A stretch of DNA of 39,959 nucleotides, taken from positions 1 through 39,959 of IMG/VR virus record IMGVR_UViG_3300046171_000350; one strand, 5' to 3'. Below are positions 3,422-37,001 of the stretch, piece by piece. The stretch is from a virus. A model generated the notes under the pieces. That model saw only the letters and a list, made by a program, of their open reading frames with translations. It ran no database searches and had not been told where the DNA came from. The translations under genes were made by a program, and so were the position numbers. Numbering within the stretch: position 1 is the first letter of the stretch; every line of letters begins with the position of its first letter.

Positions 3422-3534
3422 AAGCAGCAGTCGAGGATCAAGATGGTTATAATGATTCCAACAAAGAGGGTTATCATCTTTCCTCGCTTGGTTAAGGATT
3501 TGTATTTGTCGGCAAGTAGTTTGAAATTTTTCAT
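3418..3534 (-). CDS. Tiny single-pass membrane protein
   Basis: 38 residues: a basic N-terminus (MKNFKLLADKYKSLTKRGK) then one transmembrane helix MITLFVGIIITILILDCCL reaching the C-terminus. Start and stop overlap neighbours as ATGA on both sides, indicating translational coupling. Phage genomes often carry such short membrane peptides beside holins. A lysis or membrane-anchoring role is inference from position. Confidence 0.6.
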   Translation of the reverse strand: MKNFKLLADKYKSLTKRGKMITLFVGIIITILILDCCL

Positions 3535-3956
3535 GACTTTGAACTTGGACGGACTGGAAATGGTGGATTAGTAAGTCCCTTTCGCACTTCAGATTTAGAG
3601 CACCTTCTTGCTACGAAAATGGGAATGGTTAAATAGACCCCAAGGATGCAAGCGGCTCCAATGAGTATCCGCTTGATGTAAGTGGTAAATTCTTCAAAGC
3701 CTGATGCGTGTTCCCGCATCTTTGCATGAACAATTCCTTCCACATCACCGTGGGTAATAGCTTCTACCAATTCTTCATTTTCATCAGTAAGCTCGTAGAT
3801 CTTTCCACCAGCATACCCTACCCCTGCTCCCAGTGCTGCTCCACCTGGTCCACCTATGGACCCTACTGCTGCTCCTGAAATAGTCGCAGCAGGTGTCGCT
3901 AAGTTACGAAGACTGCAACCAGTGAGAAAAAGAAAAGCCAGTAGCACATAAATCAT
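3531..3956 (-). CDS. Glycine-zipper lipoprotein with C-terminal membrane helix
   Basis: 141 residues. The N-terminus MIYVLLAFLFLTGCSLRN is a lipoprotein signal peptide with lipobox LTGC (Cys14 lipidated). Residues about 25-53 form a glycine zipper (AAVGSIGGPGGAALGAGVG). After an acidic linker there is a membrane helix (ILIGAACILGVYLTIPIFVA) and a basic tail. Known glycine-zipper lipoproteins act at envelopes; in a phage next to a holin this could be a spanin-like or lysis-control protein. It would link outer and inner membranes, which suggests a Gram-negative host. Confidence 0.6.
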   Translation of the reverse strand: MIYVLLAFLFLTGCSLRNLATPAATISGAAVGSIGGPGGAALGAGVGYAGGKIYELTDENEELVEAITHGDVEGIVHAKMREHASGFEEFTTYIKRILIGAACILGVYLTIPIFVARRCSKSEVRKGLTNPPFPVRPSSKS

Positions 3957-4162
3957 TACTGCCCTGTAGCGTCACGATCAAACTGTGCTAGGGTCGCGTC
4001 AGATGATCCTGCGGTAGTCTCAGCCACATAGATTTTCTTGGTGTCAGTAGCAAAGTATAACTCACCTTGCACACACTCCTTCTTAAACTTTGACTTGTTC
4101 GCATCTGTCCCCGTCTTCACCGCAATGGTAAAGTCCTTCTTGTGCAATTTATTGAGTGCCAT
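3956..4162 (-). CDS. Small receptor-binding/fibre-associated protein
   Basis: 68 residues. The segment QGELYFATDTKKIYVAETTA matches the short GEl.y.tDt..lyvg module at the N-terminus of tail-fibre and Mtd-type adhesins. The basic N-terminal half (MALNKLHKKDFTIAVKTG) is different. It lies between the beta-helix spike and the lipoprotein gene, whose ATG shares its last base. A role in attaching or trimerising the spike is plausible but inferred. Confidence 0.6.
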   Translation of the reverse strand: MALNKLHKKDFTIAVKTGTDANKSKFKKECVQGELYFATDTKKIYVAETTAGSSDATLAQFDRDATGQ

Positions 4163-4168
4163 GACTAC

Positions 4169-5014
4169 TTAGCTTGCTGTTCCAGCACCGATACAAGGAG
4201 AGGATGGACGAAGGCGGTAATCGCCTGTCGAAGAGTCTACGAATTGTGGGTCTGTCTCATATAAAAAATCCGTAGCACCACTCAATGGACTCCCTGTAGT
4301 ATACGCTGTATCATTAAGACAGCAGTTTTTTATAACAGATGGACTCCATGATCCGATTGTTACGGCATAAGTAGACTTTCCTATAAGTATAGAATTTTTA
4401 AACTCACCTGCCCCACTAGAAGATAATCCCACATCAGCAGAGTTTGCATTCATCAGCAGAGTTGAACTTCTAACATTAAGAGTAGATGGAGTGCTTCCCT
4501 GTCTCGTCAAAGAAGTAGTATATCCTGATCCACTCCCAAAAATTATTATAGAATTTTCTATAGTGAATGTTTTATTATTGCTGTTATTCGCAAGAAAACC
4601 CCGTGATGTGGCTACATTTACACCCGAGTCAATTATGCATCCATCGATAACCATATCTGATTCGCAAGCGATGACACCAAGTCCAAAACTTGTAGAATCA
4701 TTTACGACTTTTATAGTCTCTAATCGAAAAGTACCTGTAGTTGCATTACAATCAATGGAATTACCTGTTGATGTATTCCGTAAAATAGCGGCAGTAGAAG
4801 CACCTACAATAGTTAAACCTGTTGTAGTAAATTCTATTTCACCTACACTATGTGTCCCATCTTTCACCGCTATTTGCCCATCATTACTGACAGCGGCTAA
4901 TGCCTCTGCGATTGTGTTGTAAGGTTCTGCGAATGTTCCTGACTCGGTTCCCGAATGGGCAGAGTCGAACCATATTGCATTAGGATATTTTGCTTGTACT
5001 GAAGAATTACTCAT
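4169..5014 (-). CDS. Right-handed beta-helix tail spike
   Basis: 281 residues. The start (AIWFDSAHSGTESGTFAEPYN) and the end (DPQFVDSSTGDYRLRPSSPC) are the two hallmark motifs of secreted parallel beta-helix proteins (pectate-lyase-like fold, DUF1565-type). Between them are serial short strands with stacked Ser, Asn and Val residues (VIDGCIIDSG, FTIENSIIIFG, FKNSILIGKS). In phages such folds form tail spikes that bind or cut host surface polysaccharide. No catalytic pair is evident, so enzymatic activity is open. It follows the fibre gene by 11 nt. Confidence 0.8.
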   Translation of the reverse strand: MSNSSVQAKYPNAIWFDSAHSGTESGTFAEPYNTIAEALAAVSNDGQIAVKDGTHSVGEIEFTTTGLTIVGASTAAILRNTSTGNSIDCNATTGTFRLETIKVVNDSTSFGLGVIACESDMVIDGCIIDSGVNVATSRGFLANNSNNKTFTIENSIIIFGSGSGYTTSLTRQGSTPSTLNVRSSTLLMNANSADVGLSSSGAGEFKNSILIGKSTYAVTIGSWSPSVIKNCCLNDTAYTTGSPLSGATDFLYETDPQFVDSSTGDYRLRPSSPCIGAGTAS

Positions 5015-5025
5015 TTTTTATTTAT

Positions 5026-6105
5026 TTAAGAGATTGAACCACCTGAAATTAAAAGTGGTGATGGATTAGCCCCAATATCGGGAAAGTTAAAACCTTGTCT
5101 GATTGGAAGCCCGTTGGCTCCTTTGGTGTCGGTATCTCCGCTGATTACTGAGTAAGTAGTGCCATCTGTATCGACCGCCTCTATATCAGGCTCTGTGCCG
5201 TCAGATTGAATACTAAACCCTTTAGCCAATGCGAGCCGGGATGAAGGTGTATTAACAAAAACATTTGCACCATCCTTCGTTAAAAACTCCAAGTTGCCAT
5301 CCGCATCGGTGATAACCATGAGGGATTGAGAGGGATTATCTATAACCTTTAACGATTGATTGGGAAACGCTCCGATATGTGGATTGTCTGTGCCTCGTAA
5401 ATTTTCGTCTGTAATTGGAACTGTCTGAAACGAGCAGGTTCCATCTCCGTCTTCCCGCAAGAATTTAGTAGCACCTGTTTCGCCTGTGGAGGTAACCTGT
5501 GTACCATCGACTGATCCGCTAGGTAAATTCGTTAATTGCGATCCGTCTACCGCAGGTAGCTTGGCAGTTCCGTCCAATTGAACCACATTGCTTGCCGAAG
5601 TCCCTACATCTTGCGATGCCGCTGTACCAAGATCACCAGGCTGAGTAGCACTATCTGCTAATGCTCCCTGTGCCGCAGTTGCGTAGTCGGAACTTGCTGT
5701 GGTAGCCGCTGTGCCGAGTCCTAGGTTTGTGCGGGCAGTTCCTGCATTATTTAAATCTGAGAGATTACTTGTGATCGCCAACTTTGTTGCATCAGTGCCT
5801 GAGACATTTGTTAGTTGTGATCCATCGACTGCGGGTAGTCCTGTGGAATCTAATTCAACTACATTACCGTTAGATGTTCCCACATCTTTAGTAGCTGCGG
5901 TACCCAGACCACTAACATCAGTATTACTTAAAGTTACTGCACCTGTCCTTCCTGCTACACTTTGCACAGGTGCGGCTCCCATTAAATTTGTTACCGTCAC
6001 CTTCTTCGTTGTTGGTGTTCCACTAACATCTGTAATGGGTAAAATATCTGCCCCTGCTGGTGTTGCCCCAAGTGCTGTTAAATCGCTGATTTTCTTATTT
6101 GCCAT
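5026..6105 (-). CDS. Tail fibre protein with repeated TA.TNLGLGTAA-type motifs
   Basis: 359 residues; ATG is preceded by AGTAGGAGAAA, a strong ribosome site overlapping the stop of the previous small gene. The N-terminus MANKKISDLTALGATPAGAD and DILPITDVSG is the phage fibre signature. Repeats include LGTAATKDVGTSNGNVVELD versus LGTAASQDVGTSASNVVQLD, LPAVDGSQLTN twice, and ARTNLGLGTAATTASSDYA. These build trimeric fibrous shafts. The C-terminal 120 residues are non-repetitive and probably contact the spike or receptor. The DNA-level repeats may allow recombination between fibres. Confidence 0.85.
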   Translation of the reverse strand: MANKKISDLTALGATPAGADILPITDVSGTPTTKKVTVTNLMGAAPVQSVAGRTGAVTLSNTDVSGLGTAATKDVGTSNGNVVELDSTGLPAVDGSQLTNVSGTDATKLAITSNLSDLNNAGTARTNLGLGTAATTASSDYATAAQGALADSATQPGDLGTAASQDVGTSASNVVQLDGTAKLPAVDGSQLTNLPSGSVDGTQVTSTGETGATKFLREDGDGTCSFQTVPITDENLRGTDNPHIGAFPNQSLKVIDNPSQSLMVITDADGNLEFLTKDGANVFVNTPSSRLALAKGFSIQSDGTEPDIEAVDTDGTTYSVISGDTDTKGANGLPIRQGFNFPDIGANPSPLLISGGSIS

Positions 6106-9715: not shown

Positions 9716-9786
9716 GGAATAGCAGTATTGGCTTGGGATATAAGCCGATTCTTGACGATGGTGAAAACAAGTGTTTGGTTGCAGTA

Positions 9787-10350
9787 ATGAAAGCAATACA
9801 CATTTTTTTTATATTCAGCATATTCAGCTTCAACGCTATTTTCGCAGAGGAGGAACCGAACCTCGATGACCCAAAAGTCCAAGACCAGATTATTGAAATT
9901 GCCGCACAAAAATTAGAAGGGCGAACGAAGGGAAATGGTTATATCCTTAGATACCTTCCGTTTCGACAGGTCCCATATACAGGTTGGGAGGTAAGTTTTT
10001 ATGCTAATGGGCAAGTCAAAGAGTTATGCCAATACAAGAATGGCAAGCCAGACGGGCTTTTTAGAAAGTGGAGAGTAGACGGGGAGAAGCAGATCGAAGG
10101 AAACTACAAGGACGGCAAGCGAGACGGGCTTTATACTGAATGGTTCAGGGATGGGCTTAAAAGGGAAGAAAACTACAAGGACGGCAAGCGAGACGGGCTT
10201 TATACTGAATGGTGGTTCAGGGATGGGCAGAAGAATCAGGAAGGAAACTACAAGGACGGCAAGAAGGATGGGCTTTGGTTTTTTTACAACGAAGACGGAA
10301 CAGTAGATTTTCGTGAAAACTACAAGGACGGCGAAGAAGTAAAAGACTAA
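9787..10350 (+). CDS. Secreted MORN-like (YwqK-type) repeat protein
   Basis: 187 residues from the ATG at 9787, where a clean signal peptide starts (MKAIHIFFIFSIFSFNAIFAEE). After a short linker, the mature protein is built of MORN-2/YwqK-type repeats: ANGQVKELCQYKNGKPDGLF, then four copies of NYKDGKRDGLYTEW-like units. Such repeats are common in bacterial surface proteins and in genes annotated as YwqK-type antitoxins. Placed opposite to the virion operon, it looks like a moron expressed in the lysogen. Target unknown. It ends 4 nt into the convergent gene at 10347. Confidence 0.7.
   Translation: MKAIHIFFIFSIFSFNAIFAEEEPNLDDPKVQDQIIEIAAQKLEGRTKGNGYILRYLPFRQVPYTGWEVSFYANGQVKELCQYKNGKPDGLFRKWRVDGEKQIEGNYKDGKRDGLYTEWFRDGLKREENYKDGKRDGLYTEWWFRDGQKNQEGNYKDGKKDGLWFFYNEDGTVDFRENYKDGEEVKD
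10101..10345 (+). repeat. In-gene tandem repeats, period 69-75 nt
   Basis: The string AAACTACAAGGACGGC starts at 10101, 10170, 10245 and 10317 (periods 69, 75 and 72 nt). The first two units are identical over more than 50 nt, which implies recent duplication. All steps are multiples of three, so the number of MORN units can change without breaking the frame. Confidence 0.85.
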
Positions 10351-10517: not shown

Positions 10518-10710
10518 CTTTGAGGGTCTGATAAATTCTATCGAAGGATGCAATCTCTCCGCCTAGTCGGGCTAGGATGTAGGGATTGTCCATCGCACTG
10601 GGTTGCTGAAAATCTCCAATGAGATTTTCTCTTTCGTTTTCTAAGTATTCGAGGACGATGTTCCAATCGTCTCTGCCCCTTAATCTTGATAATGCTTGTT
10701 TGAAGGTCAT
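10486..10710 (-). CDS. Small helical head-module protein
   Basis: 74 residues (MTFKQALSRLRGRDDWNIVL...), with YILARLGGEIASFDRIYQTL near the C-terminus, a helical pattern seen in small conserved phage proteins near portal genes. ATG overlaps the upstream stop as ATGA. Virion or assembly role unproven. Confidence 0.6.
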   Translation of the reverse strand: MTFKQALSRLRGRDDWNIVLEYLENERENLIGDFQQPSAMDNPYILARLGGEIASFDRIYQTLKDEPAPGNKTV

Positions 10711-10964
10711 TTCTTTTTCTTCCTGGCAAAAGTTTTAACATTGGTTGGTTTGCCACCAACACCTTGGGCCTTTGCCCGTTTTCTTCTGACTGCTGACTTC
10801 TTTTGTGAGTCTGTCATCTTGGCAGCCTTTGCGGCTGGTACACATTTGGGATAACCCTTTCGGGAAGTGCTGGCTTTCTTTCTACCGCACTTGGGGTGAC
10901 CACCGCCTTTTTTCTTCCTGGAAATATCAACCCAGTTGTCTTTGAACCATTTCTTCAGGCTCAT
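10707..10964 (-). CDS. Small Lys/Cys-rich basic protein (DUF5872-like)
   Basis: 85 residues: KKWFKDNWVDISRKKKGGGH, then PKCGRKKASTSRKGYPKCVP, then SQKKSAVRRKRAKAQGVGGK and a Lys-rich tail. This pattern, with W-VDI, two PKC motifs and S-A-V-R-R-K-R, is one I recall from a family of unknown function (DUF5872, from memory) found in many marine viruses. The basic charge and paired cysteines suggest nucleic-acid binding or packing inside the head. Starts within the previous stop (ATGA). Confidence 0.7.
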   Translation of the reverse strand: MSLKKWFKDNWVDISRKKKGGGHPKCGRKKASTSRKGYPKCVPAAKAAKMTDSQKKSAVRRKRAKAQGVGGKPTNVKTFARKKKK

Positions 10965-11122
10965 GCGTTGCGGTACTTCCCTCCCCTTTTCTTATAGGTT
11001 TTGACAAGCCATGCATTAGCATAAGCTGATGGATAAACATCAAACTTACGCTTGGCCTCTGACTTTACCCTGGAGTAAAGAGCAGCATTAGTAGGTTTGG
11101 GTTTTTTCTTCTTAGCTACCAT
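10961..11122 (-). CDS. Tiny conserved basic phage protein
   Basis: 53 residues (MVAKKKKPKPTNAALYSRVK, then EAKRKFDVYPSAYANAWLVK, then TYKKRGGKYRNA). The motif FDVYPSAYANAWLV-YKKRGG is a very conserved small-protein signature in marine phage genomes. Start overlaps the upstream stop (ATGGTAG) and the stop overlaps the next ATG (ATGA). Function is not known; probably a head-associated or DNA-binding protein. Confidence 0.75.
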   Translation of the reverse strand: MVAKKKKPKPTNAALYSRVKSEAKRKFDVYPSAYANAWLVKTYKKRGGKYRNA

Positions 11123-11367
11123 TTTCTGCAACTCCAATAACGGGCTGAAAGTTTACTGTTCTTCTGATCACACTTGTGGCGTGCTCGGAATGATTTGCGG
11201 GCCTTAGGGTTAGACTTACGGATCTTCATGTTTGCATCCCCGTAACGAATTGTCTTCTGCTTGCCGCCTTCAGAGGCAAGGACCACAAACTTCTTCTTTC
11301 CGTACCCAGGTTCACCTTTTCGAATACGGCGGGGAGAGTTTACCTTACTTGGTCTTCCTTTTGCCAC
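11116..11367 (-). CDS. Small basic protein of marine phages
   Basis: 83 residues from a GTG at 11367. The core IRYGDANMKIRKSNPKARKS is followed by FRARHKCDQKNSKLSARYWS and CRKW. This 'D-NM-IRK-NP-ARK-FRARH-C...ARYWSC' signature is shared by small proteins next to portal or capsid genes of marine phages. His and Cys could bind zinc. It overlaps the preceding tiny gene by 23 nt. Role unknown, probably virion. Confidence 0.7.
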   Translation of the reverse strand: MAKGRPSKVNSPRRIRKGEPGYGKKKFVVLASEGGKQKTIRYGDANMKIRKSNPKARKSFRARHKCDQKNSKLSARYWSCRKW

Positions 11368-15331: not shown

Positions 15332-15785
15332 GTAAATTCTCCTGGTTAATTACAAAACATGAACCATGGCCAACATCGCCCTGGCTTGAAAATACTTCAT
15401 CCGAAGTGGCAAAACCCCGAATTGTGAAAGTGGGTAAATCACCGGTAATCAGAACATACCGATCCGATGGTTTATTCTTTTTTGCCAGGGGGACAATTAG
15501 TCTACCGTTGGCATGGTGAGTGGTCTTAACATCAATTGTTTTATTACCCAGCTTAAAGTCAGGGCCGCCTGATCTGATGTGAAAACATAGATCCAGGTAG
15601 ATGTTGTAAGTCTTTGCGAACACAATCTCCCCACAGATTCCGAGTAAATCATTTCTAAAATTATCCTGGCCTGGTATTTGAACATTATGGCTGGTCCCGG
15701 CTACTCGATTATTGCCAGTCCTTAGACTGGCAATTGTGCGAGCCAGCATAATTTCATTCTCATCCAGGGTGACCGTATGCTGCAT
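15315..15785 (-). CDS. PD-(D/E)XK nuclease-like protein
   Basis: 156 residues. The sequence GGPDFKLGNKTIDVKTTHHA gives D76 and D85-V-K87, the core of the PD-(D/E)XK endonuclease fold, and E53 (LLGICGEIVFAKTY) supplies the usual N-terminal acidic residue. Related folds include restriction enzymes and Holliday resolvases. The ATG overlaps the TerL stop as ATGA, so it is translationally coupled to the terminase. It may help packaging, junction resolution or host DNA attack; substrate unknown. Confidence 0.65.
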   Translation of the reverse strand: MQHTVTLDENEIMLARTIASLRTGNNRVAGTSHNVQIPGQDNFRNDLLGICGEIVFAKTYNIYLDLCFHIRSGGPDFKLGNKTIDVKTTHHANGRLIVPLAKKNKPSDRYVLITGDLPTFTIRGFATSDEVFSSQGDVGHGSCFVINQENLHAFKF

Positions 15786-17413
15786 CAGTATCCTCCTGAT
15801 TGAGTCGGCATAAGCTCTGACTCGTCGTAGTATTCAAAATTTCCAACCGCAACATATCGAAGGCAGTCAACAGGATCCTTACACACACCCTTTGGGCCAT
15901 CCTCGACCTTGTAGTTCATGCAGCAGTAAATTGTGTTACCGCACTCGTCTGAAAAAATTAACCTAGAGTGGTTATCGAAACCAATTTCCTTGGTTTTATC
16001 GTAGCTAAGTAAATTGTTTATGGCTTGAAGGCCGTCATCAATAGGCAGTCCATCGGCTGGATACGCTTGGATACCCTCGTCATGCAGATCCGCGATAATA
16101 TTACTTGTGCCCTCTGCTTTTGAATAGCTGGCGGATCCAAGTCGCGGATCGATTAAAATTTCACAGTCCTTACTGCCAATCATCTCCCGAATCACTTCAG
16201 CATAATCCTGTATACCGTATCCATTCGGTGCAGCCGCTTCACCAGGTCTGCCCTTTTCGCCTCGCTCAAGATCGGCCCAGGGGCCGAAGGATGGGTCAGG
16301 CCACTCTTTTACCACATAATGAACACCGTTGGCTGCAACAGCTACCAGGACCATAAACCAACTTTTGTTTCCTGCTGGGTCAATTGATAGCACCCAGTTA
16401 GCTGGGTGGTTAACAGGGTCCTTTATTACAGGAATTTCACTGTGCTTCATGACTACCCTGTCATCCAGATTTTGAAATACCGTATTGCTCGGTTTTGTCG
16501 GGACTCCGTAAGCCCTGCATAATATTTCATCCCGCTTGGCTCCCTGGAGCTGGTTTTTCATCGACTCCCATCCTCCGTATGGATTTTCCGATGTGTGAAA
16601 ATATACGATACGCGAATTTGTACGGAGTGGCTGCTGGATAAGCGGGACCTTCTCGCCTTCCAGCAGTTCAGCTTCACGGTCCTCTACGGTCCTGGCTCCT
16701 GATAAATATCGGCTTACCATCGGGGTCCATCCGCTGATTGTCGTGAAAGTTGCAATCATACGAGCAGGGGTTCCGTCAGAGTCGGCCCTGGTCAAAGTTC
16801 TATAGGCAGTAGTGGACCAGTACGAAAGAGGAACCTCCTCGTCAAACCAAGCGGCGATGTTGAAGGTTCCCTCGACTGCATCGTTAGGGCAGCCAATTTC
16901 TCCGCCCTCAATTGACGAAATATCCTGACTCCAATTCTTGAACACCACCTGACTGCGGTTAGGCAGAACAAATGTCTGATTCGTGAATCCGTTTTTTACA
17001 GAGTAACGAACACTCGCTACGCGAGTATGGCCGATTGTCTTAAACTCATTAGGAAGGAATTTGTAGATGGCGGCCTGTTGGACCTGGATTGAACATTGGC
17101 TATTGCTCGCAAAACACCAAACAGTGGTTCCAGGGTTATGCACCACACACTGCACTACCCTTTTCGCAATTGCAGTGGTTTTACCACTGCGATTGCCTCC
17201 TAAAATAATTACCTCACCATATTTCTTGAGTGCATCGTCAGCCAATTTCCAGTGAGGCAATTCTGTGGAGAAATTAAATGGATCCTCAATCTCCCTTTCA
17301 ATGGCCGCTTCCCTTCGCTCATAGTATTCCAGCAATCGCTCTGGACCCATTGCCAGTTGCTCCTCTTGTGAGGGTATCTCCAAGATTGGATGATAAGTCC
17401 ATTGCAACGCCAT
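15785..17413 (-). CDS. terL: Terminase large subunit
   Basis: 542 residues from the ATG at 17413, preceded by an AGG-containing site; a GTG at 17458 would add 15 unlikely residues. ATPase domain: Walker A GGNRSGKTT (72-80) and Walker B AAWFDEE (187-193). Nuclease domain: SIDPAG (D345), LIDPRLGS (D422) and DPVDCLRY (D516), consistent with the RNase H-like metal site. It pumps DNA into the procapsid and cuts concatemers. The nearest small-terminase candidates are the HTH genes at 14945 and 18033. Confidence 0.93.
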   Translation of the reverse strand: MALQWTYHPILEIPSQEEQLAMGPERLLEYYERREAAIEREIEDPFNFSTELPHWKLADDALKKYGEVIILGGNRSGKTTAIAKRVVQCVVHNPGTTVWCFASNSQCSIQVQQAAIYKFLPNEFKTIGHTRVASVRYSVKNGFTNQTFVLPNRSQVVFKNWSQDISSIEGGEIGCPNDAVEGTFNIAAWFDEEVPLSYWSTTAYRTLTRADSDGTPARMIATFTTISGWTPMVSRYLSGARTVEDREAELLEGEKVPLIQQPLRTNSRIVYFHTSENPYGGWESMKNQLQGAKRDEILCRAYGVPTKPSNTVFQNLDDRVVMKHSEIPVIKDPVNHPANWVLSIDPAGNKSWFMVLVAVAANGVHYVVKEWPDPSFGPWADLERGEKGRPGEAAAPNGYGIQDYAEVIREMIGSKDCEILIDPRLGSASYSKAEGTSNIIADLHDEGIQAYPADGLPIDDGLQAINNLLSYDKTKEIGFDNHSRLIFSDECGNTIYCCMNYKVEDGPKGVCKDPVDCLRYVAVGNFEYYDESELMPTQSGGY

Positions 17414-17458
17414 GATCCTATTTTGGCATGTGCTGACATGGAACAAAAGGCATGTCAC

Positions 17459-18032: not shown

Positions 18033-18527
18033 ATGCCTACCAAGAAAAAACGAGTCCAGATAATCCCTGACAACCTTCCTGCCCTAACCCAACCCGAAGA
18101 AACCTGTCCGTCCCTGTTCACAGGAACCACCCTAGCCAAGAAGGATCCAGGTAAGTATGGCAGGGTGGTCCAGAAGTTGGCTGAAGGGATGAGTATGAAC
18201 CGTATAGCCAAGGTGGAGAAATTGTCACCTGGTACCGTTGCAGCCATAGCAAAGCGGGAACATAAGTCAGTGGATGCAGTCCAGACCTTAACGGCTGGAC
18301 TGACAAGTTATGCCAGTCAGGCTTGCTTGGAACGGATCATTGAGAAGTTGGATGCGGATGAAATACCCGCAGGGGTTCTCCCTATTTGTTTTGGTATCCT
18401 ACGGGACAAGGAACGGGGGGACCTAGGACAGGCTCAGACCGTGATTGAGCACAAGCAGACCCTGACGATTGATCAGGTGAAACGGGAGCTGGATCAAATG
18501 AAACGGAATGCGGAGGATGCGGGATGA
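18033..18527 (+). CDS. HTH protein, candidate small terminase or regulator
   Basis: 164 residues. KYGRVVQKLAEGMSMNRIAK, then VEKLSPGTVAAIAKREHK (about residues 47-84), is a helix-turn-helix. The rest is helical (ACLERIIEKLDADEIPAGVL, then PICFGILRDK) and ends in HKQTLTIDQVKRELDQMKRN. Proteins of this plan occur next to large terminase genes in marine phages. Small terminases bind the packaging site through such HTHs. Divergent from terL, it could instead be a regulator. No Shine-Dalgarno sequence precedes the ATG. Confidence 0.55.
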   Translation: MPTKKKRVQIIPDNLPALTQPEETCPSLFTGTTLAKKDPGKYGRVVQKLAEGMSMNRIAKVEKLSPGTVAAIAKREHKSVDAVQTLTAGLTSYASQACLERIIEKLDADEIPAGVLPICFGILRDKERGDLGQAQTVIEHKQTLTIDQVKRELDQMKRNAEDAG

Positions 18528-18578: not shown

Positions 18579-18893
18579 ATGGCAAATTACAAAGTAAATT
18601 ACAAAAATAGTGATAAGAAAGTTTATATTGAGGCTGACTCCCCAAGGCACGCATACATCAAGTTTTTAGAGCAGTCTGATATACATGAAAAGCCAGTCTT
18701 AGTTACCTCTGAAAGTACTTCGGGTAGTATTCCTCAAACCGAAACCTTCTCAGATCATGAAACATTATTTACTGTTAAAACCCAGCTAGATATTCTCAGC
18801 CAACTCAAGCAGATCAATTGGGCTATCAGAATTGGATTCTTGTTTATCATGGCAGTTGTCACAGGAATCATTAAGCCTGGTATCTTTGGGTAA
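18579..18893 (+). CDS. C-terminally membrane-anchored small protein
   Basis: 104 residues; AGGAGA lies 6 nt before the ATG. The N-terminal half is soluble and beta-like (MANYKVNYKNSDKKVYIEAD), and the C-terminus has a single membrane helix (AIRIGFLFIMAVVTGIIKPG). No known family. It follows the HTH gene by 51 nt and ends before a strong inverted repeat, so the two form a short plus-strand unit. Confidence 0.55.
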   Translation: MANYKVNYKNSDKKVYIEADSPRHAYIKFLEQSDIHEKPVLVTSESTSGSIPQTETFSDHETLFTVKTQLDILSQLKQINWAIRIGFLFIMAVVTGIIKPGIFG

Positions 18894-18945
18894 AAATCCC
18901 CTTAACAATCCCCACCTGGTTAAAGGGTATACAGGGTATAAGGTT

Positions 18946-18974
18946 AGAAAGTCTCTCTTAAGGAGAGACTTTCT
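18946..18974. terminator. Probable bidirectional terminator hairpin
   Basis: GAAAGTCTCTC (18947-18957) pairs perfectly with GAGAGACTTTC (18963-18973) around TTAAG; an outer A-T pair extends it to 12 bp. It lies between convergent genes ending at 18893 (+) and 19063 (-). The flanks are only moderately T-rich (TTAAAA), so termination is likely but not certain. Confidence 0.65.
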
Positions 18975-18992
18975 TAAAAGGGTCACCCTGTC

Positions 18993-19008
18993 ACCCTGTT
19001 AACAGGGT
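18993..19008. repeat. 16-bp perfect palindrome
   Basis: ACCCTGTTAACAGGGT is self-complementary, just after the terminator-like hairpin, and its left half CACCCTGT is repeated directly 9 nt upstream (18985-18992 and 18994-19001 region). Could be a protein-binding operator or part of the terminator region. Confidence 0.5.
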
Positions 19009-19062
19009 AAGCTCCCGTTGGTCGATTGTACTGGGGGCAGGAAATAAAACAAGCCGTGTCAC

Positions 19063-21237
19063 CTATTGTCCGTTATTATGGTTTTCGCAGAAAATAATTG
19101 CCACAGCTTCGGCTGAATATTTAGCAGCCCTTGTTGGTTCACGCGACCCTTCATAATTCTTTGCCTTCTCGCTGAAGAACTTAATGTCTTTAGCAGATAA
19201 ATCTAATTTCTTTAAATGTAATTTGAATGCCCCATCAATATCTGTGTTAAACTTCTTTGCATTCTTCAACTTGTTCACCGCCTCTGTTATTTCAGGGGAA
19301 TTAATTTTGGTTTCTTTAAATGCTTTCCTACATGCCTCAGTGAAGGCCTTTATTATAGCCTTCTCCTTTGTAAGAACATTGTAACCTTTGACTGGTTGTA
19401 AATCGTTTTCTTTTACAATTAGGTTTCCATTATTTTTGGCAGTACTGTTGGTTATGTAATTTTTGATTTTAGTAGGTTTTTTACCCTCTCTTTTCTCGGC
19501 TTCCATCATCTGTTCATGCTCAAGAGAATAAACCTGTTTGCCCTGGCACTTAGCAATGTCGATTACACTACACTCTGGACCGCCACCTAGTTTTTCCATA
19601 AAGCCACGATACAGATCCGTATCTTTCCATTTCTGTAGTTTCTCGGATTGTTCGAATTGCTGACTGTAACTATTCGAAGCAAGGGCTTCCTCTGTCGCGG
19701 TCCCTATCATTTTTTGATCCGTAGCTTTTTTCAATTTAACTTTTTCCACCATTTCTTTCGCATCATCCATCCCCTCTTCGAATCCTCGCATAAAATCATC
19801 GTAGCCTCCAATTTCATCAAGTTGTTTCTGTAAAATTTGTATTAAGCCTGGGCTAGGTTCTGTACTCTCCAGATATTCCTTTGTTGAATCTACAACGAAT
19901 GAATCAATCGGAACAATCTTCAGACCAAGTTCCTCAAGTTGCGGAGATAGTTCTTTGATTGCAGTCATCTTATCTTTGTAACCCTTGCTGGTTTTCGGTA
20001 ATTCATCACCCTTCCTTTGCATGTTCGATACAACAGTCTGGTCCGCTATGAATACGGATATGTCTTCATGGTCATAATCGTAAAGTTCGTAGCAATCCAA
20101 TACTGTAGAAATAGCTTTTTCAAAACTCTTGTCACTTACTGTCCGTACCCTTTTTTTATACCAATTCCAGATCACTTTCCTAGCCTTCATATATTCAGGC
20201 AGTTTAGAGGCACACAACTTCCAGTTCTCCAGGTTTTTACCACTGTATGAAAGGGACTGACCATACTTCATCAAAGTGTTGAGTGCCTTCTTCATTTCAT
20301 TCGAAGGGTTGCTCGCTAATCTTAGAAGCCTGTAGGGCAACATGCTATCATCAGCGAAAGTAACACCTGGTAAAGAAGGATAACTACGGGGGATATTAAT
20401 TCCTAAAGGGTATCTTTTCTGTCTATACACAATTTCATTCCAACGGTTGAGTACAAATAAACCTTCACCGCCATTTGGTACATTCAGTGAATCTAGATTC
20501 TGTTTGTATTCATTTGGATCCAAGTACTCTTCTCGCATCTCGATAACTAATCCTTGGTAATTAATAAAATTTACAACATGACAACATTGAGTGATGGCAA
20601 AATTAACTTTCGAAGTTAATTCTGCAACTGCCTCAATTGCATCTTCAACTAATGGTTGATGTAAAGCTATGGACCCAGGGTCAGGCACACCATCCTCTGG
20701 TGATAAAAAGTAGTAATAATCGTCAATAGATTCCTCATAGGCCATACCCATAAGGTTGGGGTTTTGCTGAGTCTCCAATAAATATTCGACCCATAAGTTT
20801 CCGTTTTTTCTAGTTTTATCGGCTGCAATAATTCCAGCAGACTCAGGAAAATTTCTTACCACACACTCATGAATCAATGCTACATTCTGTGCCAAATGGT
20901 TTCTTACTGCTCGTATTTCTAATAAGAATGTTTGATCCTCTGGGCTAAAGCGAACCTCTCCTAAATGCCACCTTTCATTAAAAGCTACCCAAGCGTCTAG
21001 GTGATTCTTCATGTGTTCATCCAGTTTTTCAGCAAATGCAGTTAAGATCGTGTTCGCTTTGGTCATCATCAAAAGTGCATGATCATTGACCATACCTCCT
21101 TGTATAACTTCCTCGGCGATCATGTGAAAAGGCTCGGGCCTAAGTAATCTTTCCAAACTTACTTCTGGGTTCTTACCCCACTTTTGGGCCATCTCCCAAA
21201 TCTGAAAATCAGTATTATTTGTAGCATTCATGCTCAC
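19063..21237 (-). CDS. Large protein of unknown function (724 aa)
   Basis: 724 residues from a GTG at 21237; an ATG two codons later (21231) is equally likely. No enzyme motif is recognised. The first 200 residues are helical (RAVRNHLAQNVALIHECVVR), the middle is mixed, and the last 250 are Lys/Glu-rich helices (ATDQKMIGTATEEALASNSY; TEACRKAFKETKINSPEITE). It is alone in its transcription unit, divergent from the replication operon, with TTGACA at 21266-21261 as a good -35 box that would make an almost leaderless transcript. Its position suggests early expression or a lysogen-expressed accessory (possibly host takeover or defence). Confidence 0.7.
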   Translation of the reverse strand: MSMNATNNTDFQIWEMAQKWGKNPEVSLERLLRPEPFHMIAEEVIQGGMVNDHALLMMTKANTILTAFAEKLDEHMKNHLDAWVAFNERWHLGEVRFSPEDQTFLLEIRAVRNHLAQNVALIHECVVRNFPESAGIIAADKTRKNGNLWVEYLLETQQNPNLMGMAYEESIDDYYYFLSPEDGVPDPGSIALHQPLVEDAIEAVAELTSKVNFAITQCCHVVNFINYQGLVIEMREEYLDPNEYKQNLDSLNVPNGGEGLFVLNRWNEIVYRQKRYPLGINIPRSYPSLPGVTFADDSMLPYRLLRLASNPSNEMKKALNTLMKYGQSLSYSGKNLENWKLCASKLPEYMKARKVIWNWYKKRVRTVSDKSFEKAISTVLDCYELYDYDHEDISVFIADQTVVSNMQRKGDELPKTSKGYKDKMTAIKELSPQLEELGLKIVPIDSFVVDSTKEYLESTEPSPGLIQILQKQLDEIGGYDDFMRGFEEGMDDAKEMVEKVKLKKATDQKMIGTATEEALASNSYSQQFEQSEKLQKWKDTDLYRGFMEKLGGGPECSVIDIAKCQGKQVYSLEHEQMMEAEKREGKKPTKIKNYITNSTAKNNGNLIVKENDLQPVKGYNVLTKEKAIIKAFTEACRKAFKETKINSPEITEAVNKLKNAKKFNTDIDGAFKLHLKKLDLSAKDIKFFSEKAKNYEGSREPTRAAKYSAEAVAIIFCENHNNGQ

Positions 21238-21403
21238 ATAAAAAATTTTTTTTGAAAATTTGTCAATATGTGACTTTTATGTGGAATATATATGGAATGC
21301 TATTCCATTCATGTGGAATAAAACTTCCTAGATTCTATATGTAATAGCGGTCAATAGCGGACACGGTTTGTTTTATGTTTCAAATGCATGTTAAGGTGGA
21401 TTC
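21238..21403. promoter_or_regulatory. Divergent promoter/operator region
   Basis: AT-rich gap between two divergent genes. It holds CTTTTATGTGG (21274-21284), identical to the inverted iteron at 24468; ATGTGGAATA twice (21279-21288 and 21311-21320); a palindrome ATGGAAT-GCT-ATTCCAT between them; and a direct repeat AATAGCGG (21343-21350 and 21353-21360). TTGACA on the minus strand (21266-21261) is a good -35 box for the 724-residue gene. This is the most likely switch region for early genes. Confidence 0.65.
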
Positions 21404-21637
21404 ATGTCCGATAAAACATCCACACAAAATAACGATACAAACAAGATTCCCGTTGAGCAACTCATTAGTTCAAAGGATATAGAATCTGCTTTCGAAGTTG
21501 GCCGCAGAACCGTCAGAAGATGGGCGAAACAATACAACTGGAGAGAGTACCGTTTTAGTCATAAAGTCCTTCGTTACCTCCGTAACGATGTAGAAAACTC
21601 CATGGGAGTATCTTTCGCCAATACCATAGAAGGTTGA
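21404..21637 (+). CDS. Small HTH regulator, first gene of the replication operon
   Basis: 77 residues; AAGGTGG lies 5 nt before the ATG. ISSKDIESAFEVGRRTVRRW followed by AKQYNWREYRF (about 26-55) looks like an excisionase/MerR-type winged helix-turn-helix. As the first gene after the operator region, it is a candidate repressor or activator of the operator repeats. Its stop overlaps the next start as TTGA. Confidence 0.6.
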   Translation: MSDKTSTQNNDTNKIPVEQLISSKDIESAFEVGRRTVRRWAKQYNWREYRFSHKVLRYLRNDVENSMGVSFANTIEG

Positions 21638-22077
21638 AGGCTTACTTTTTCATAGACCCTGGTCAATCAGGCGGAGTGGCTATCGCACTTGGATCCATGG
21701 ATGATCTAGTGGCCCATAACTTAGACGGAGTAAGTTCCCTTCAGGAATTACTCCAAGACTATGAATGCTATGACCGCCGTATCATCTGTGAAAATGTCCC
21801 CTCTTACACGGGCCGCAACATTCCAAGTCACGCGAGCTTTAAGTTAGGTAGATCATTCGGCCTAATTGAAGGGCTTGCCAGGGGCATGAGCCTACCCTGT
21901 GCCATGATTGGACCAAAGGTCTGGCAAAAGGGCCTAGACGGACTCAACGGCAAGACAGGCATGGCAAGGAAGCGTGTTCTAAAGGAACACGCACAAAGAC
22001 TATATCCGTCTGCAAAAGCGACTTTACGAACAGCCGATGCAATTTTGATCGGTCACCATTTTTTCAATAACCAATAA
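21634..22077 (+). CDS. RuvC-like Holliday junction resolvase
   Basis: 147 residues with a TTG start overlapping the previous stop. The fold signature is present: FIDPGQSGGVAIA (D8), IICENVPSYTG (E53) and RTADAILIG (D135), together with SFKLGRSFGLIEGLARG. RuvC-family enzymes cut four-way junctions made during recombination-dependent replication. TAATAACC and an 11-nt spacer lead to the SSB-like gene, so this is one operon. Confidence 0.8.
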   Translation: MKAYFFIDPGQSGGVAIALGSMDDLVAHNLDGVSSLQELLQDYECYDRRIICENVPSYTGRNIPSHASFKLGRSFGLIEGLARGMSLPCAMIGPKVWQKGLDGLNGKTGMARKRVLKEHAQRLYPSAKATLRTADAILIGHHFFNNQ

Positions 22078-29239: not shown

Positions 29240-30652
29240 ATGAAAGCTGAAAACTGGACTCAGGACCGCCTCAAAATAGAATATGTCGAAACGGGTAAGC
29301 TCAATTACCTTCTGATTGGGACCTTACCACATGGCGAGCGGATAAGAAAGAAATTTTTAACTAAGGAATTAGCCAAGGTTGCAAAGCAAAAGATTATTAC
29401 TGACCTTGGAAACTCTATCGAGCGTTACACTGACTTGACTCTCGATCAGGAGGAGGAATACAAGTTGGCTCAGACTCTCATCGAGAAGTCTGATCGACTT
29501 CCCGAAGGGTTCACAATTATCCAGGCAGTTGAGTTTGCTAAACTTAATTTTCAACCCGATGTGGCCGTTGGTGTTACCATCAAACAAGCTACCGATAAAT
29601 GGGTCGAGATTCTTGAAGATGCCAACCGTGCTAAGAAATATGTTAACGACATGAAAGCCGTTGGCACTTGGTTGGGTGAAGCTTTTGGTCATGATTATCC
29701 TGTCGCATCAATTAACACTGAAGATGTGCGTAATTTTCTGTCCGTTGGTCCTAATGCAACAGGTCCTTGGAAGGGTAAAGTTTTGGCACCAATAACTCGA
29801 TTCAATCATCGTCACCGCTTATCCCTATTCTTTAACTTTTGCAGAGAGTTAGGGTATATTATCAAGAAGCCTCTTAACAAGACGATCAAGGTTCCTGAGA
29901 TACCCCAGAAGAAGATTGAGATACTTAGCCATGATGAAGTTGCCGATCTATTTAAGGCATGTGAAAACATCCGCCCCGAGATTACTATCCCTTACTTCGC
30001 CCTGGCGATCTTTGGTGGCCTTCGCCCACAAGAGTTATGCCACCCCGAGGGTAAGCAAGTTGTACAATGGGATAACTTCATCATTCGCCCCAATGGTAAA
30101 GATTGTGCCGTTGAGGTTGAGGGTGAGGCTGGCAAAACTGTTGAAAGACGGATTGTGGATCTGCCTGAGAATTGCATCAAGTGGATTAGACCGTACCTAA
30201 AGGAACACGGCCCAGTGATTCCATTATGTTACGAAGACTGGCGAGTCCTTTTCGATTGTGTTCGTTGCCATGCTGGTTTCAGCATCAATACCCAGGAGGC
30301 TTCCAGGTTCGACAAAAACATCAAGGAAGTGAATGACAAAAACACCAAGTCATGGGTCCAAGATGTTTGCCGTCATACCGCCCTCACCTACTACTTTGAG
30401 CGAGTCAGAAAGAATAAGTTTATCGCTGCTGATTGGGCTGGTAATCGTCCAGAGGTGTACAAGTCACATTACAACTCCAAGGTCAAGGGTACCCTTAAGC
30501 AAACCACTGAAGAGATTGTTGCTGACTTCTATTCCATCGAGCCTGGACCTAGCCTCGCGCATAAACCTCTCAGGCAATTCCATTCCCCCAGTCGCTGGTC
30601 AACACTTCCATTTGTAGAATTTGACTACAATAATGCTTTATCTTATGTGTAG
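29240..30652 (+). CDS. int: Tyrosine integrase
   Basis: 470 residues. The catalytic domain spans about 225-425: Arg I in GGLRPQEL (R262), box II DVCRHTALTYYF (R378-H379), ADWAGN (W399) and the nucleophile Y411 in VYKSHYNSKV. The usual H-x-x-R has Asp in place of the first His, as in related integrases. The N-terminal half holds the core-binding SAM-like domain (about 112-206). It integrates the phage, probably into tRNA-Leu(UAA). The last 30 or so residues read through repeat A and may be a non-native extension. Confidence 0.9.
   Translation: MKAENWTQDRLKIEYVETGKLNYLLIGTLPHGERIRKKFLTKELAKVAKQKIITDLGNSIERYTDLTLDQEEEYKLAQTLIEKSDRLPEGFTIIQAVEFAKLNFQPDVAVGVTIKQATDKWVEILEDANRAKKYVNDMKAVGTWLGEAFGHDYPVASINTEDVRNFLSVGPNATGPWKGKVLAPITRFNHRHRLSLFFNFCRELGYIIKKPLNKTIKVPEIPQKKIEILSHDEVADLFKACENIRPEITIPYFALAIFGGLRPQELCHPEGKQVVQWDNFIIRPNGKDCAVEVEGEAGKTVERRIVDLPENCIKWIRPYLKEHGPVIPLCYEDWRVLFDCVRCHAGFSINTQEASRFDKNIKEVNDKNTKSWVQDVCRHTALTYYFERVRKNKFIAADWAGNRPEVYKSHYNSKVKGTLKQTTEEIVADFYSIEPGPSLAHKPLRQFHSPSRWSTLPFVEFDYNNALSYV
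30564..30616. repeat. Direct repeat A (orphan polyvalent tail)
   Basis: 53 bp; 49 of 53 identical to repeat B. It is inside the 3' end of int on the plus strand. On the minus strand it reads PATGGMELPERFM, matching the C-terminus of the protein at 32691-37001. TTGACT follows at 30621. Confidence 0.8.
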
Positions 30653-31124: not shown

Positions 31125-31138
31125 CAAATTTTCACCTA

Positions 31139-31191
31139 AACCTCTCAGGTAATTCCATCCTCCCAGCCGCTGGTCAACACTTCCATTTGTA
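31139..31191. repeat. Direct repeat B (orphan polyvalent tail)
   Basis: 53 bp, 49 identical to repeat A. On the minus strand it encodes PAAGRMELPERFR followed by a TGA stop, the polyvalent C-terminus with its stop. Downstream it shares TTTTTCGTT and TTGACTA spacing with repeat C. Confidence 0.85.
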
Positions 31192-32690: not shown

Positions 32691-35600
32691 TTACCTGAAC
32701 CTCTCAGGCAACTCCATCCCCCCAGCCGCTACGGCGGCTGGTGCTAGAAAACGATTTACTCCGCTGGGCGTAGCTCTGGCGGAAGAATCTCGTACTCCTC
32801 TGGGTCTATCTCGTGTTCCGAGTCCCCGAACAGAAGGACGAAATAGTTGCCCTTCGTCAGAGGAAGCCCTGCCCTGTTGAGAGTCTCCGCTGCCTCTGGG
32901 TCTATTTTCTCCAGGGGTATTATTGCCTTCGGCCCAAGATGGTGGATCGATTCCACCTGCTTTGTCGAAGATTTTGGCTCTAAGCTCATCGATGCTGATT
33001 TTACCGTTTTCATACTGTTTGAACAAGTCGTTTATCTGTTGTTTGAACTTGGGTTGTTTTATCTCTTTTGGATAAAGTCCCCTGATGGCTTCCCAGGTGA
33101 TTGATTGCATTTCGCGGGGTAACACTCCCCTAGCCTTTGCAGCCCTTCTGTAAGCCTCTGCATAGACTCCATAGAGGCCACTAATACCTGCAATGGAACT
33201 ATTCTTAATTGATACATGCTGCTTACCTGTTGGTTTGGCACCTAGCATGTTTGCCACTTCAAGATCCTTACTTGCCAGTGGTCTAAGTAAACCCGCTGCA
33301 ACTGCATGGGTATCTATCGTTACCGCATCCTTGTCCATGAAAGGTAGAAGGATGTTGTTGTAGAAATTCCTAATCTTATGGGCTTCACCCATAACATTGG
33401 AAATGTTTGCTTTTGAGTCATCAGCCAATGCAGACAGGGCTTTAGTAATTTGACCGTAAGATAGCCAACTGTACTTGTCTATTTCACCGTTATCCTTGAG
33501 AGCTGGACCAATAAAGTCACCCTCAGGTGAAATAATCTGATAACTACGATCACGATTCAACTCATCAAAAGCCCTAATGAAATATGCCTGTTCCCTTTTA
33601 TTAAGATCTTTAAAAGCTTTACCAACCATTGTTTTGGTAATGGCTGTAATAGAAGGCTTATCAGTCTTACTGGCTGTCGATATGGTCTTTTTTGCCATAG
33701 CTTCATCATAGACTGTATCCTGCTCATCCTTGACCGTCTCAAGAATCCGCCGTGCCCGATCAACATTCTTATACCAATCCGTCTGTGGCGAAGTTGCAGC
33801 CATTGTAGCTGCAACTGCCTGGGGAGAAAATCCATACTTCTCTGCATACTCCAGGGCAATCTTCCTGGCACCTACATACCAGAGTTTTGAGCGTTCTCGT
33901 ATTTCAGGTTCCACTGAATCATACAAGTGTAGAAGGTTGCTTTCTACCATATCCACAAACTTCGCGATAACAGTCTCAGGTTTTGCCCTGGATGCTTTGA
34001 AGCCTGGATAACGGTTAACTGCCTTAGCATAACTCTCAGCGACTCCTGGAGCCTCTAGAATATCGTTTAAAGTGATTACCAGGTTTGATGCGACAGGGTC
34101 CTCTGTTCTGTTACCAGCCGTTGGGTTCCTGGTACTTATTTGAAATTCAAGGTCTGCCTCTTCCGTAGGAATGAATAAGTCACCAGTCTCTAACTCACGG
34201 CGGATAAGGTTAGCGGTTTTATCGTTATCCTTCGATCCGACTATATCTTCAGGTTTAATAAACTCTCTCCTCTGTGAAAATGGCTGATTGTTTTTATCAA
34301 AGCCAATAAATGGGTCCTGCTTATCATTGTCTGCAATTCCTGATAATCTGGCTCCGTCCTTAAGCATAACAGAACTTTTAAAGTTACGAGTTTTAGATGC
34401 TATATTACCTTGGGATTTTCTCCGAAAAGGACTGCCTGGACCTTCTTGAATTTCAGTAGGCTGGTAAAGATTCTCATCCGACTGCCTGAATGGGTTGTAG
34501 TTGTCGCGGATATTATTGTAGTCAAAGGCAAAGGCTTTATTCCTGCCCTTGGTAAGCCCTGCCAATGCTTCTACATCGTAGGAACGAAAACTCTTTTTGA
34601 CTGCTTTGGATTCAAGTAGGTCCCTCAATCCTGGGCTGGCTATGTTACCAGCAGATTCTTTCAATCCGAAAGCTACCGTCATTAATTCATTTTCCTTACG
34701 GCCCTCTGGATTAATTCTACCTTCAGGATCCTCCAGGGCTTTTTGCCCCTGATCCTCAAGCTGTCTCATAAAGTCAGCCTGGTCCTTGATATATCCCTTT
34801 TCGACTAAGACCTGGATGTTGTTTCTAACAACAGCCTGATCGTATCCTAAAACTTTGAGGTTTGGTCTGTCACGACCACTTACTTCGTATCCGTAAATAG
34901 CAACATCTCGTATCCTAAATGGATTCTGATACTTTCCCTTAGTACCGCTTCGATAACCGAAGCGGATACCAATCCTCTGAGTAATTGCTTCCTGTAAAGC
35001 ATCCAGGATATTGGCAACATTTCCGAAAGGATCATTTCGGGTAAAGATGGTCCTTAAATCAGGCAATAAATTCTTACCTACAAACTTCCCATTCTTGGTG
35101 ACTGACCAAGTGTCTGCTGGTTCATCCTTATATTTCTTTTTAAGATTCTGAAGCTCCCTGTTCAAAGATTTATTGGTGACGGCTAAATTCTTCGCATCCC
35201 TAAGACTTAGGCCCTGACCGCCAAATAATTCAGTATATCTATCCTCTCCAGTTTGTCCTTTCTTAGGAGTGATTTGCATACCGTTCTCAGCCAGGTTGCC
35301 TTTCTCATCCAATTCCAATGCACGGGCTTTACCGTAGTTTCTGTACAGTCTTTTAAGCACAGGGCTATTGAGCTGTATTTTGGATATTGGATTGGTTAAA
35401 GGGTTTCCAGTTACAGGTTCTGCTATTCCAACCGCCGTCAAAAGACGGCGTGTTGAATCAATAAGCATCCTTCTCAATCTTGGATGAAACTGCTCAAAGA
35501 CATTCGGGTTTTTACTGAACATCATGGCGAATTGGTCGGCTCCAATCTCCTGGGCTAACTTGGAAGCGTTACGGCCAATATCAATACCCTTCTGTTTGCG

Positions 35601-37001
35601 GGAATAGTCTGTAGCTATCTGTACGGCTTGGTCATTTAAATAGATCGGATCCCCGACAGGGTTTCCTTCCATATCATACTGAAAGTAAAAAGGTGTGCCT
35701 TTATCCTCGGTTGTTTTGTAGCCCTCAAGTAGCAATTGAAGCATGGTAGGATCATTACCTAATGCTTCGTGAAGGAAGGCATGACCTGTCTCATGAGCGG
35801 TAATTTCTAATCCTACCTGGGCAGATTTATTGATACGGTTTTCATTTAGAAAAACCGTCTTTGACTCCTTATTGAAATGTCCAGCAGGAGCACGATCCAA
35901 CAGGTCCAAGCCTTTACTTTCCCTGTCTTTATTAAGCATAGTCAAATATGCCTTATCTTCCATGATCAGAAATTTTGGGGCACCAATATTGGCTTCCTGT
36001 AAGGTTGCCAAAAATACCTGGGCTGACTTAGGAAGCTTCTTAAACATGGTACGCTGGTCCTCTGTCAGCTTCATTTTCATGTGGTTATCAATCGTCTGGG
36101 TTTCCCTGGCTGCGATTGACTTTCCACCTTGGGTTCTGGCTGGACCCATAGGAACGATACCACCTGCAACTAAGCCTGAACCTGCGGCAGCTCCTGAACC
36201 GTATGCATCTTCTCCAGCTAACCCTGCAAGACCACTATTTATTCCAGCAACGGTTAGACCGTTAGATAATGCATTAAACAACCCGTCTCCAATTGCAGTG
36301 CCGAAATTATCATATGCAATAGTTGCAAGCTTACGGGAAGCTGGTGAAACCTTTTCATTGGTAGCTACGCGATAAAGGAACCTTTTGCTCGAACCTGGAG
36401 CGGCAAAGTTCTTTAACAGTTCTCCACCTTCTCGCCCGATCTTTTTGGCCATTATGCCAACACCCTCTGCAATTCCTAATTCAAGGAAACCTGGAATACC
36501 ACCAGCAGCACCAGCTACCTGGCCACCAAATGCAGCAGCACCTGGTACACCTTCACTAACTCCTTTGAGTTTACCCGCTAAGGATGCAACAGCACGGCGA
36601 GGGGCTGACGCAACCTTTTCGGTTGCGGCCCCTACTGCCCCGATACCCTTGAGGGTATATCCTGCACCGCCAGCAAGACCCTTAAATCCTTTTCGCAATC
36701 CATATGCAGTTGCCTTAGAAGCCAGCTCTGTTGGATAGGCTCCAACTTTTCCTGCTATATCAATTCCTTTTCCTAATTTCTGTAATCCTTTGTCAGCCGT
36801 CTTGGCTACCTTTGCCACATTGACCAAGCCTCTGGACCTGGCAGCAGTAGCCCCTGCCGTTGCTGACTTTTGGGCAGCAACTATTGGGGCACGGGCGGCA
36901 AGTGAACCAAGTTTTGCCACTGGAAATATTAAAAATGGGTCTACGAAATTGGCTCCAAAATCTGTGATTTTTTTATACTCCACCTCATCGGATGCGAGCA
37001 T
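32691..37001 (-). CDS. Giant virion polyvalent protein with zincin motif
   Basis: 1436 residues. The first 300 are Ala/Gly-rich and amphipathic, like DNA-ejection proteins. Residues 403-407 are HETGH in EITAHETGHAFLHEALG, a HExxH zinc-protease motif, and E485 in QEIGADQFA could be the third ligand. A later domain (about 1030-1280) has YGFSPQAVAATMAATSPQTDW and ITIDTHAVAAG-like motifs of a family I know from phage polyvalent proteins (DUF7178-like). Such giants are packaged and injected with the genome to act in the host. Its likely N-terminus is in another frame upstream (36941-37099). Confidence 0.8.
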   Translation of the reverse strand: MLASDEVEYKKITDFGANFVDPFLIFPVAKLGSLAARAPIVAAQKSATAGATAARSRGLVNVAKVAKTADKGLQKLGKGIDIAGKVGAYPTELASKATAYGLRKGFKGLAGGAGYTLKGIGAVGAATEKVASAPRRAVASLAGKLKGVSEGVPGAAAFGGQVAGAAGGIPGFLELGIAEGVGIMAKKIGREGGELLKNFAAPGSSKRFLYRVATNEKVSPASRKLATIAYDNFGTAIGDGLFNALSNGLTVAGINSGLAGLAGEDAYGSGAAAGSGLVAGGIVPMGPARTQGGKSIAARETQTIDNHMKMKLTEDQRTMFKKLPKSAQVFLATLQEANIGAPKFLIMEDKAYLTMLNKDRESKGLDLLDRAPAGHFNKESKTVFLNENRINKSAQVGLEITAHETGHAFLHEALGNDPTMLQLLLEGYKTTEDKGTPFYFQYDMEGNPVGDPIYLNDQAVQIATDYSRKQKGIDIGRNASKLAQEIGADQFAMMFSKNPNVFEQFHPRLRRMLIDSTRRLLTAVGIAEPVTGNPLTNPISKIQLNSPVLKRLYRNYGKARALELDEKGNLAENGMQITPKKGQTGEDRYTELFGGQGLSLRDAKNLAVTNKSLNRELQNLKKKYKDEPADTWSVTKNGKFVGKNLLPDLRTIFTRNDPFGNVANILDALQEAITQRIGIRFGYRSGTKGKYQNPFRIRDVAIYGYEVSGRDRPNLKVLGYDQAVVRNNIQVLVEKGYIKDQADFMRQLEDQGQKALEDPEGRINPEGRKENELMTVAFGLKESAGNIASPGLRDLLESKAVKKSFRSYDVEALAGLTKGRNKAFAFDYNNIRDNYNPFRQSDENLYQPTEIQEGPGSPFRRKSQGNIASKTRNFKSSVMLKDGARLSGIADNDKQDPFIGFDKNNQPFSQRREFIKPEDIVGSKDNDKTANLIRRELETGDLFIPTEEADLEFQISTRNPTAGNRTEDPVASNLVITLNDILEAPGVAESYAKAVNRYPGFKASRAKPETVIAKFVDMVESNLLHLYDSVEPEIRERSKLWYVGARKIALEYAEKYGFSPQAVAATMAATSPQTDWYKNVDRARRILETVKDEQDTVYDEAMAKKTISTASKTDKPSITAITKTMVGKAFKDLNKREQAYFIRAFDELNRDRSYQIISPEGDFIGPALKDNGEIDKYSWLSYGQITKALSALADDSKANISNVMGEAHKIRNFYNNILLPFMDKDAVTIDTHAVAAGLLRPLASKDLEVANMLGAKPTGKQHVSIKNSSIAGISGLYGVYAEAYRRAAKARGVLPREMQSITWEAIRGLYPKEIKQPKFKQQINDLFKQYENGKISIDELRAKIFDKAGGIDPPSWAEGNNTPGENRPRGSGDSQQGRASSDEGQLFRPSVRGLGTRDRPRGVRDSSARATPSGVNRFLAPAAVAAGGMELPERFR
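32698..32729. repeat. Direct repeat D (native polyvalent 3' end)
   Basis: 32 bp; the in-frame original of repeats A-C. On the minus strand it is the last part of the 32691-37001 gene (GGMELPERFR, TAA). Confidence 0.85.

Follow-up and report, generated by a model that had tools for sequence, protein, structure and literature searches.

A variable slot for large genes beside the early operon of a group of integrase-carrying phages

BstA is an abortive-infection protein of prophage BTP1 and its relatives, and aba, a DNA element conferring self-immunity, lies inside its own locus (PMC8585504). Sbash 30/31 and CarolAnn 43/44 are defence genes expressed in lysogens (PMC6426596, PMC6426606). Repressor c of phage phiC31, a protein of 683 aa (Pfam PF25746), represses the lytic genes of a temperate phage. 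Here we describe a large gene in a variable slot next to the early operon of a phage, and relate it to these systems.

The slot gene and its surroundings

The window, i.e. the whole stretch of DNA analysed, corresponds to a 39,959-base virus record in IMG/VR. When its ends are joined, a 744-aa ORF arises in frame across the junction (38698-39957 plus 2-961, minus strand). Because the two ends join in this way, the record, though classed as linear, probably represents a whole phage genome that is circularly permuted. The minus strand carries the terminase, portal-like, major capsid and further virion genes. The early operon, on the plus strand from position 21404, encodes an HTH protein, a RuvC-type resolvase, an exonuclease, a primase-like protein and a RepA-like helicase. 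Judged by the integrases encoded in the window and in seven related records, these phages are temperate. The sole annotated phage with a related terminase was 'Phage C75C1' (33%), on which a literature search found no paper. The features that matter for the slot are the following.

15785-17458, minus strand: terminase large subunit (TerL), anchor for finding related phages
18033-18527, plus strand: 164-aa protein containing an HTH, called TerS-like from its position alone, near-side anchor of the slot
18895-19076: hairpin region, terminator-like for both strands, extending 14 bases into the 3′ end of the slot gene
19063-21237, minus strand: slot gene, family A large protein, 724 codons from GTG 21237, no internal stop
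19066-19665, minus strand: C-terminal 200 residues (525-724) of the slot protein, the portion conserved throughout family A
21238-21403: divergent control region, with TTGACA at 21266-21261 (minus strand) and the palindrome ATGGAATgctATTCCAT at 21292-21308
21279 and 21311: control-region repeat ATGTGGAATA
21343 and 21353: control-region repeat AATAGCGG, twice
21404-21637, plus strand: 77-aa HTH protein (HTH77), first early gene, with weak BldC/MerR/excisionase-like matches
21634-22077, plus strand: RuvC-type Holliday junction resolvase, far-side anchor of the slot
29240-30652, plus strand: tyrosine-type integrase, marking the phage as temperate

Elsewhere in the window, a 55-bp direct repeat (92.7% identical, 30562-30616 and 31137-31191) repeats the 3′ end of the integrase gene 575 bp downstream, possibly as a remnant of an attachment site or of a duplication. 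A MORN-repeat protein (PF07661) is encoded at 9733-10350 on the plus strand, antisense within the virion operon; its homologues lie at differing locations in L059, L071/L165 and L146. A pair of small genes at 10707-11137 (minus strand; 58 and 85 aa) has counterparts of 81-90% identity in L010 and L099/L103. The remaining genes of these contigs are just 40-60% identical to those of the window, and this difference therefore points to recent exchange. The 1436-aa protein encoded at 32691-37001 (minus strand) matched DUF7178 (E 2.5e-30, three stretches) and, weakly, a zinc peptidase.

The slot ORF is a real gene, because an in-frame homologue stands at the same position in the related contig L002 (about 33-35% identity, E 5e-48) and a distant one in L054 (a score reached by 0 of 1000 shuffles, global z 5.8). 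Translation likely starts at ATG 21231, giving 722 aa. The initial annotation had called it the third-largest gene, a rank that holds if the junction-spanning ORF is counted; among ORFs lying wholly within the window it is second (1436 > 724 > 691 codons). The description of the gene as a unit of its own, between a bidirectional terminator and a divergent promoter and away from the virion genes, was borne out. The transcription unit of the slot gene contains no other gene. On one side the segment 18890-19062, which separates it from the converging plus-strand genes, folds strongly (z = -3.8); on the other side lies the early operon.

In the minus-strand promoter the TTGACA box is followed by a 17-base spacer and TTTTAT at 21243-21238, and a transcript from it would start near ATG 21231. 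No Shine-Dalgarno sequence is visible at the gene start. The proposal of a nearly leaderless transcript thus stood as far as the box and its spacing are concerned; a consensus promoter scanner does not list this promoter, because its -10 element has no A at position 2, and we regard the nearly leaderless promoter as plausible rather than established. The GC content of the slot gene is 0.391 (genome, 0.441), and it was below that of the genome in every member measured. The protein has a basic C-terminal third and no segment resembling a membrane span (highest 19-residue Kyte-Doolittle mean, 1.05).

Remote-homology searches and structure prediction, two of the checks that had been proposed for this gene, were both carried out. 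No credible match to the slot protein was found in Pfam, NCBIfam, PHROGs, PADLOC, PDB sequences or phage and plasmid records, nor by pattern scans of viral and genome contigs. There was no HTH or RHH profile match and no recognizable enzymatic motif, in keeping with the lack of motifs first reported. The segment RNHLAQN (residues 110-116) was considered as a HEPN motif and rejected, as the expected His is Gln and no profile matched. PADLOC-DB 2.0.0 profiles did not assign proteins P0001, P0002, L054, L056 or L059 to a family, and the L062 protein gave one match at chance level (E 0.02). Annotated phages contained no homologues of the L054, L056 and L059 slot proteins. The AlphaFold2 model of the full-length slot protein alone was unusable (pLDDT 36). 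For the C-terminal 200 residues, AlphaFold with two homologues gave a moderate model (pLDDT 75.8, pTM 0.49). The predicted structure is mostly helical, with two short hairpins, and ends in a helix-helix-hairpin-helix. A fold search of this model against PDB and BFVD returned no match; its resemblance to a winged helix is a hint only.

Slot alleles in related phages

Related contigs were gathered with the terminase and the TerS-like gene as anchors, and those with a TerS-like identity of about 60% or more formed the slot clade. Genes in these contigs are longest-ORF calls. In the clade the gene order is TerL, TerS-like gene, slot, RuvC, g180, exonuclease, and the slot gene has the orientation of TerL and points away from the early operon. 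The HTH77 counterpart in L054 has 87 aa.

Two kinds of protein are found in the slot. Fifteen contigs (L006/L043, L063-L068, L070, L072, L074, L076-L079) encode a small RHH protein of 72-114 aa, and nine encode a large protein of 608-785 aa. The large proteins belong to two families. Family A comprises the 724-aa protein of the window, the 785-aa proteins of L054 and L055, and the C-terminal 384 aa of the L002 protein, as L002 is a fragment ending inside the slot gene. Family B consists of the proteins of L056 (680 aa), L059 (608 aa), L062/L140 (645 aa), L163 (633 aa) and L167/L175 (649 aa). Family B members are related to one another by sequence comparison; homology between families A and B was not detectable. 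The RHH gene and the large gene are mutually exclusive, with no locus containing both. A profile of the RHH proteins gave no hit at E <= 0.1 among the ORFs of the window, nor any elsewhere in those large-gene records that were read. The integrase gene comes next after the slot gene, in the same orientation, in each of the five family B phages; in the window the two are not adjacent. The large slot gene is missing from sister phages whose replication and virion genes are the same, although these metagenomic contigs may be incomplete and the lack of a gene says little outside near-complete records; comparison of the genomes suggests that the large gene is dispensable. In L054 the 785-aa slot gene is followed on the same strand (2571-5051, minus) by genes for two proteins with FGE-sulfatase domains, of 285 and 537 aa; the first and shorter one has a lipoprotein-like start.

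In a terminase tree, which leaves out the later-found L163 and L167, the large-gene phages form one clade, divided into the sister groups A and B, and the RHH phages branch outside it (support 93/98). Since the RHH phages fall outside a single large-gene clade, the tree fits a single switch between the RHH gene and the large gene.

Closely related phages differed sharply in the slot. The window and L002 share 96.6% identity in TerL, 97.5% in the TerS-like protein and 97.3% in the DNA of the hairpin region, whereas DNA similarity ends 14 bases inside the slot gene. The hairpin region is thus the border of the allele exchange. Over 366 aligned residues the two slot proteins share 35% identity, and fourfold degenerate sites of the slot gene are 27% identical, as expected at random, versus 73-84% in the neighbouring genes. 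L163 and L167 form a second, independent pair. Their RuvC, integrase and TerL proteins are 97% identical and their control regions share about 95% of nucleotides, yet their slot proteins are 44.5% identical from start to stop. In both pairs, and gene-body replacement is documented by these two only, the differences appear to reflect exchange of long-diverged alleles as a unit, not drift in place.

The neighbourhood of the TerS-like gene also varies. The window has a 367-bp insertion relative to L002 (18528-18894), placed exactly between the stop codon of the TerS-like gene and the hairpin, which carries a 104-aa ORF (18579-18893). L002 has a 196-aa ORF of no known family (1838-2428, plus strand) between the TerS-like gene and TerL; it is absent from the window, and the TerS-like gene therefore has variable DNA on both sides.

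Possible roles of the slot protein

We tentatively favour, at somewhat less than even chances, the reading that the slot protein is cargo of the lysogeny module, serving exclusion, defence or counter-defence against a variable partner. Several features point this way: the conserved slot with its mutually exclusive occupants, the integrase gene that follows in every family B phage, the two independent gene-body replacements between near-identical phages, which weigh most, the low GC content, the dispensability of the large gene, and the precedents of BstA, Sbash and CarolAnn in comparable places. The gene stands by itself between the early operon and the TerS-like gene, with a putative divergent promoter of its own, and would be expressed in the prophage or soon after infection. 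Its protein may protect the lysogen or the infecting phage through superinfection exclusion, through abortive infection or by countering a host defence. Its variability would then reflect an arms race. The suggestion that the position suits a lysogen-expressed, early takeover or anti-phage gene gained from the temperate lifestyle, the integrase linkage in family B and the wholesale exchange, but its anti-phage part found nothing convincing in PADLOC. Against the cargo reading stand the lack of a match to a known defence family or of an enzymatic motif, the separation from the integrase in the window, and the substitution of the gene for a regulator, which also fits a regulatory role.

That substitution initially made a lysogeny repressor our first choice: a DNA-binding protein of unusual size that took the place of the small RHH regulator and represses the operon starting at 21404. 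The slot gene lies at the switch, divergent from the early operon, where sister phages hold the RHH protein, and the RHH profile search left the window without another such protein. The promoter would resemble that of lambda cI, which is near-leaderless, and phiC31 c offers a precedent for a phage repressor of this size. The basic C-terminal third, the helix-helix-hairpin-helix end predicted in the moderate model and the palindromic repeats of the control region are also consistent with DNA binding. The repeats, however, are enriched only modestly (32 of 1000 shuffles), the protein matched neither an HTH profile nor a known fold, and another putative regulator, HTH77, is present in the window. 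Dispersed operators of the phiC31 type were considered and dropped, as copies of the control-region palindrome in the window are no more frequent than expected by chance. Among the RHH phages, divergence of the regulator is accompanied by divergence of the control region (62-72% nucleotide identity where the RHH proteins are 44-74% identical), although these pairs also have a larger background divergence. In L163/L167, the family B pair to which the comparison for the large gene is confined, the protein changed throughout and the control region did not follow. We therefore demoted the operator-specific repressor to a doubtful reading, while noting that the L163 and L167 alleles could keep the same DNA specificity.

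Other explanations seem less probable still. Both large families may be non-canonical lysogeny regulators or immunity proteins replacing the RHH protein in the same switch, with their specificity, including any self-immunity site, inside the exchanged body and not in the conserved control region; we consider this unlikely. Slightly more doubtful is a host-takeover or counter-defence protein acting in the first minutes of infection and not in lysogens: a promoter of its own beside the early operon and gene-body exchange matching a variable host target would suit such a protein, but transcription runs away from the early operon and in family B the gene lies upstream of the integrase. A virion or injected protein is very improbable. 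The gene does lie on the virion-gene strand of the window, but converging genes and the strong hairpin separate it from the late genes, and phages with the same virion genes lack it and have the small RHH protein instead. Homology to virion proteins, which the initial annotation had named as one observation that would count against its proposal, was looked for among virion families, and nothing credible was found. A replication initiator with an internal origin, which would explain the body swaps, was rejected, as the large gene is missing from sister phages that have the same replication genes.

In this poorly known group of temperate phages of roughly 40 kb, two unknown large families and a small regulator interchange in one slot, and whole slot alleles are exchanged with sharp borders. 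A variable gene between near-identical flanks is the pattern expected in phage-phage or phage-host conflict. If the large proteins serve exclusion or defence, the slot is a compact place to find new ones and offers natural allele pairs in which specificity could be tested; should they be regulators, they would represent a new kind of phage switch. The near-isogenic natural pairs window/L002 and L163/L167 make the question of function directly testable.

Comparison with known systems

The large proteins share slot and strand with the RHH (Arc/CopG-like) proteins of sister phages (L043, L063, L065 and others), but differ from them in size (724 aa in the window versus 72-114 aa), have no sequence relation to them and have a control region that evolves differently. 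Repressor c of phiC31 is similar in size to the slot protein; the two are unrelated in sequence (hhalign probability 0.1%), the window lacks dispersed copies of a conserved palindrome, and the genome positions differ.

Sbash 30/31 and CarolAnn 43/44 are, like the slot gene, variable genes of unknown type situated mid-genome in temperate phages, near the integrase and repressor genes. Those systems consist of two genes, for a membrane protein and a RexA-like DUF4747 protein, whereas the slot holds one gene for a large soluble protein without those domains.

BstA resembles the slot protein as the product of a single prophage gene in the immunity region that varies between phages (PMC8585504). 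The slot protein has no PADLOC, Pfam or PHROG match, and PADLOC 2.0.0 may hold no BstA model. BstA is encoded downstream of the repressor gene, whereas the slot gene, first and only in its unit, does not follow a prophage repressor gene with a shared promoter. By analogy, joint movement of BstA with its aba element would fit the exchange of gene bodies between unchanged flanks seen at the slot.
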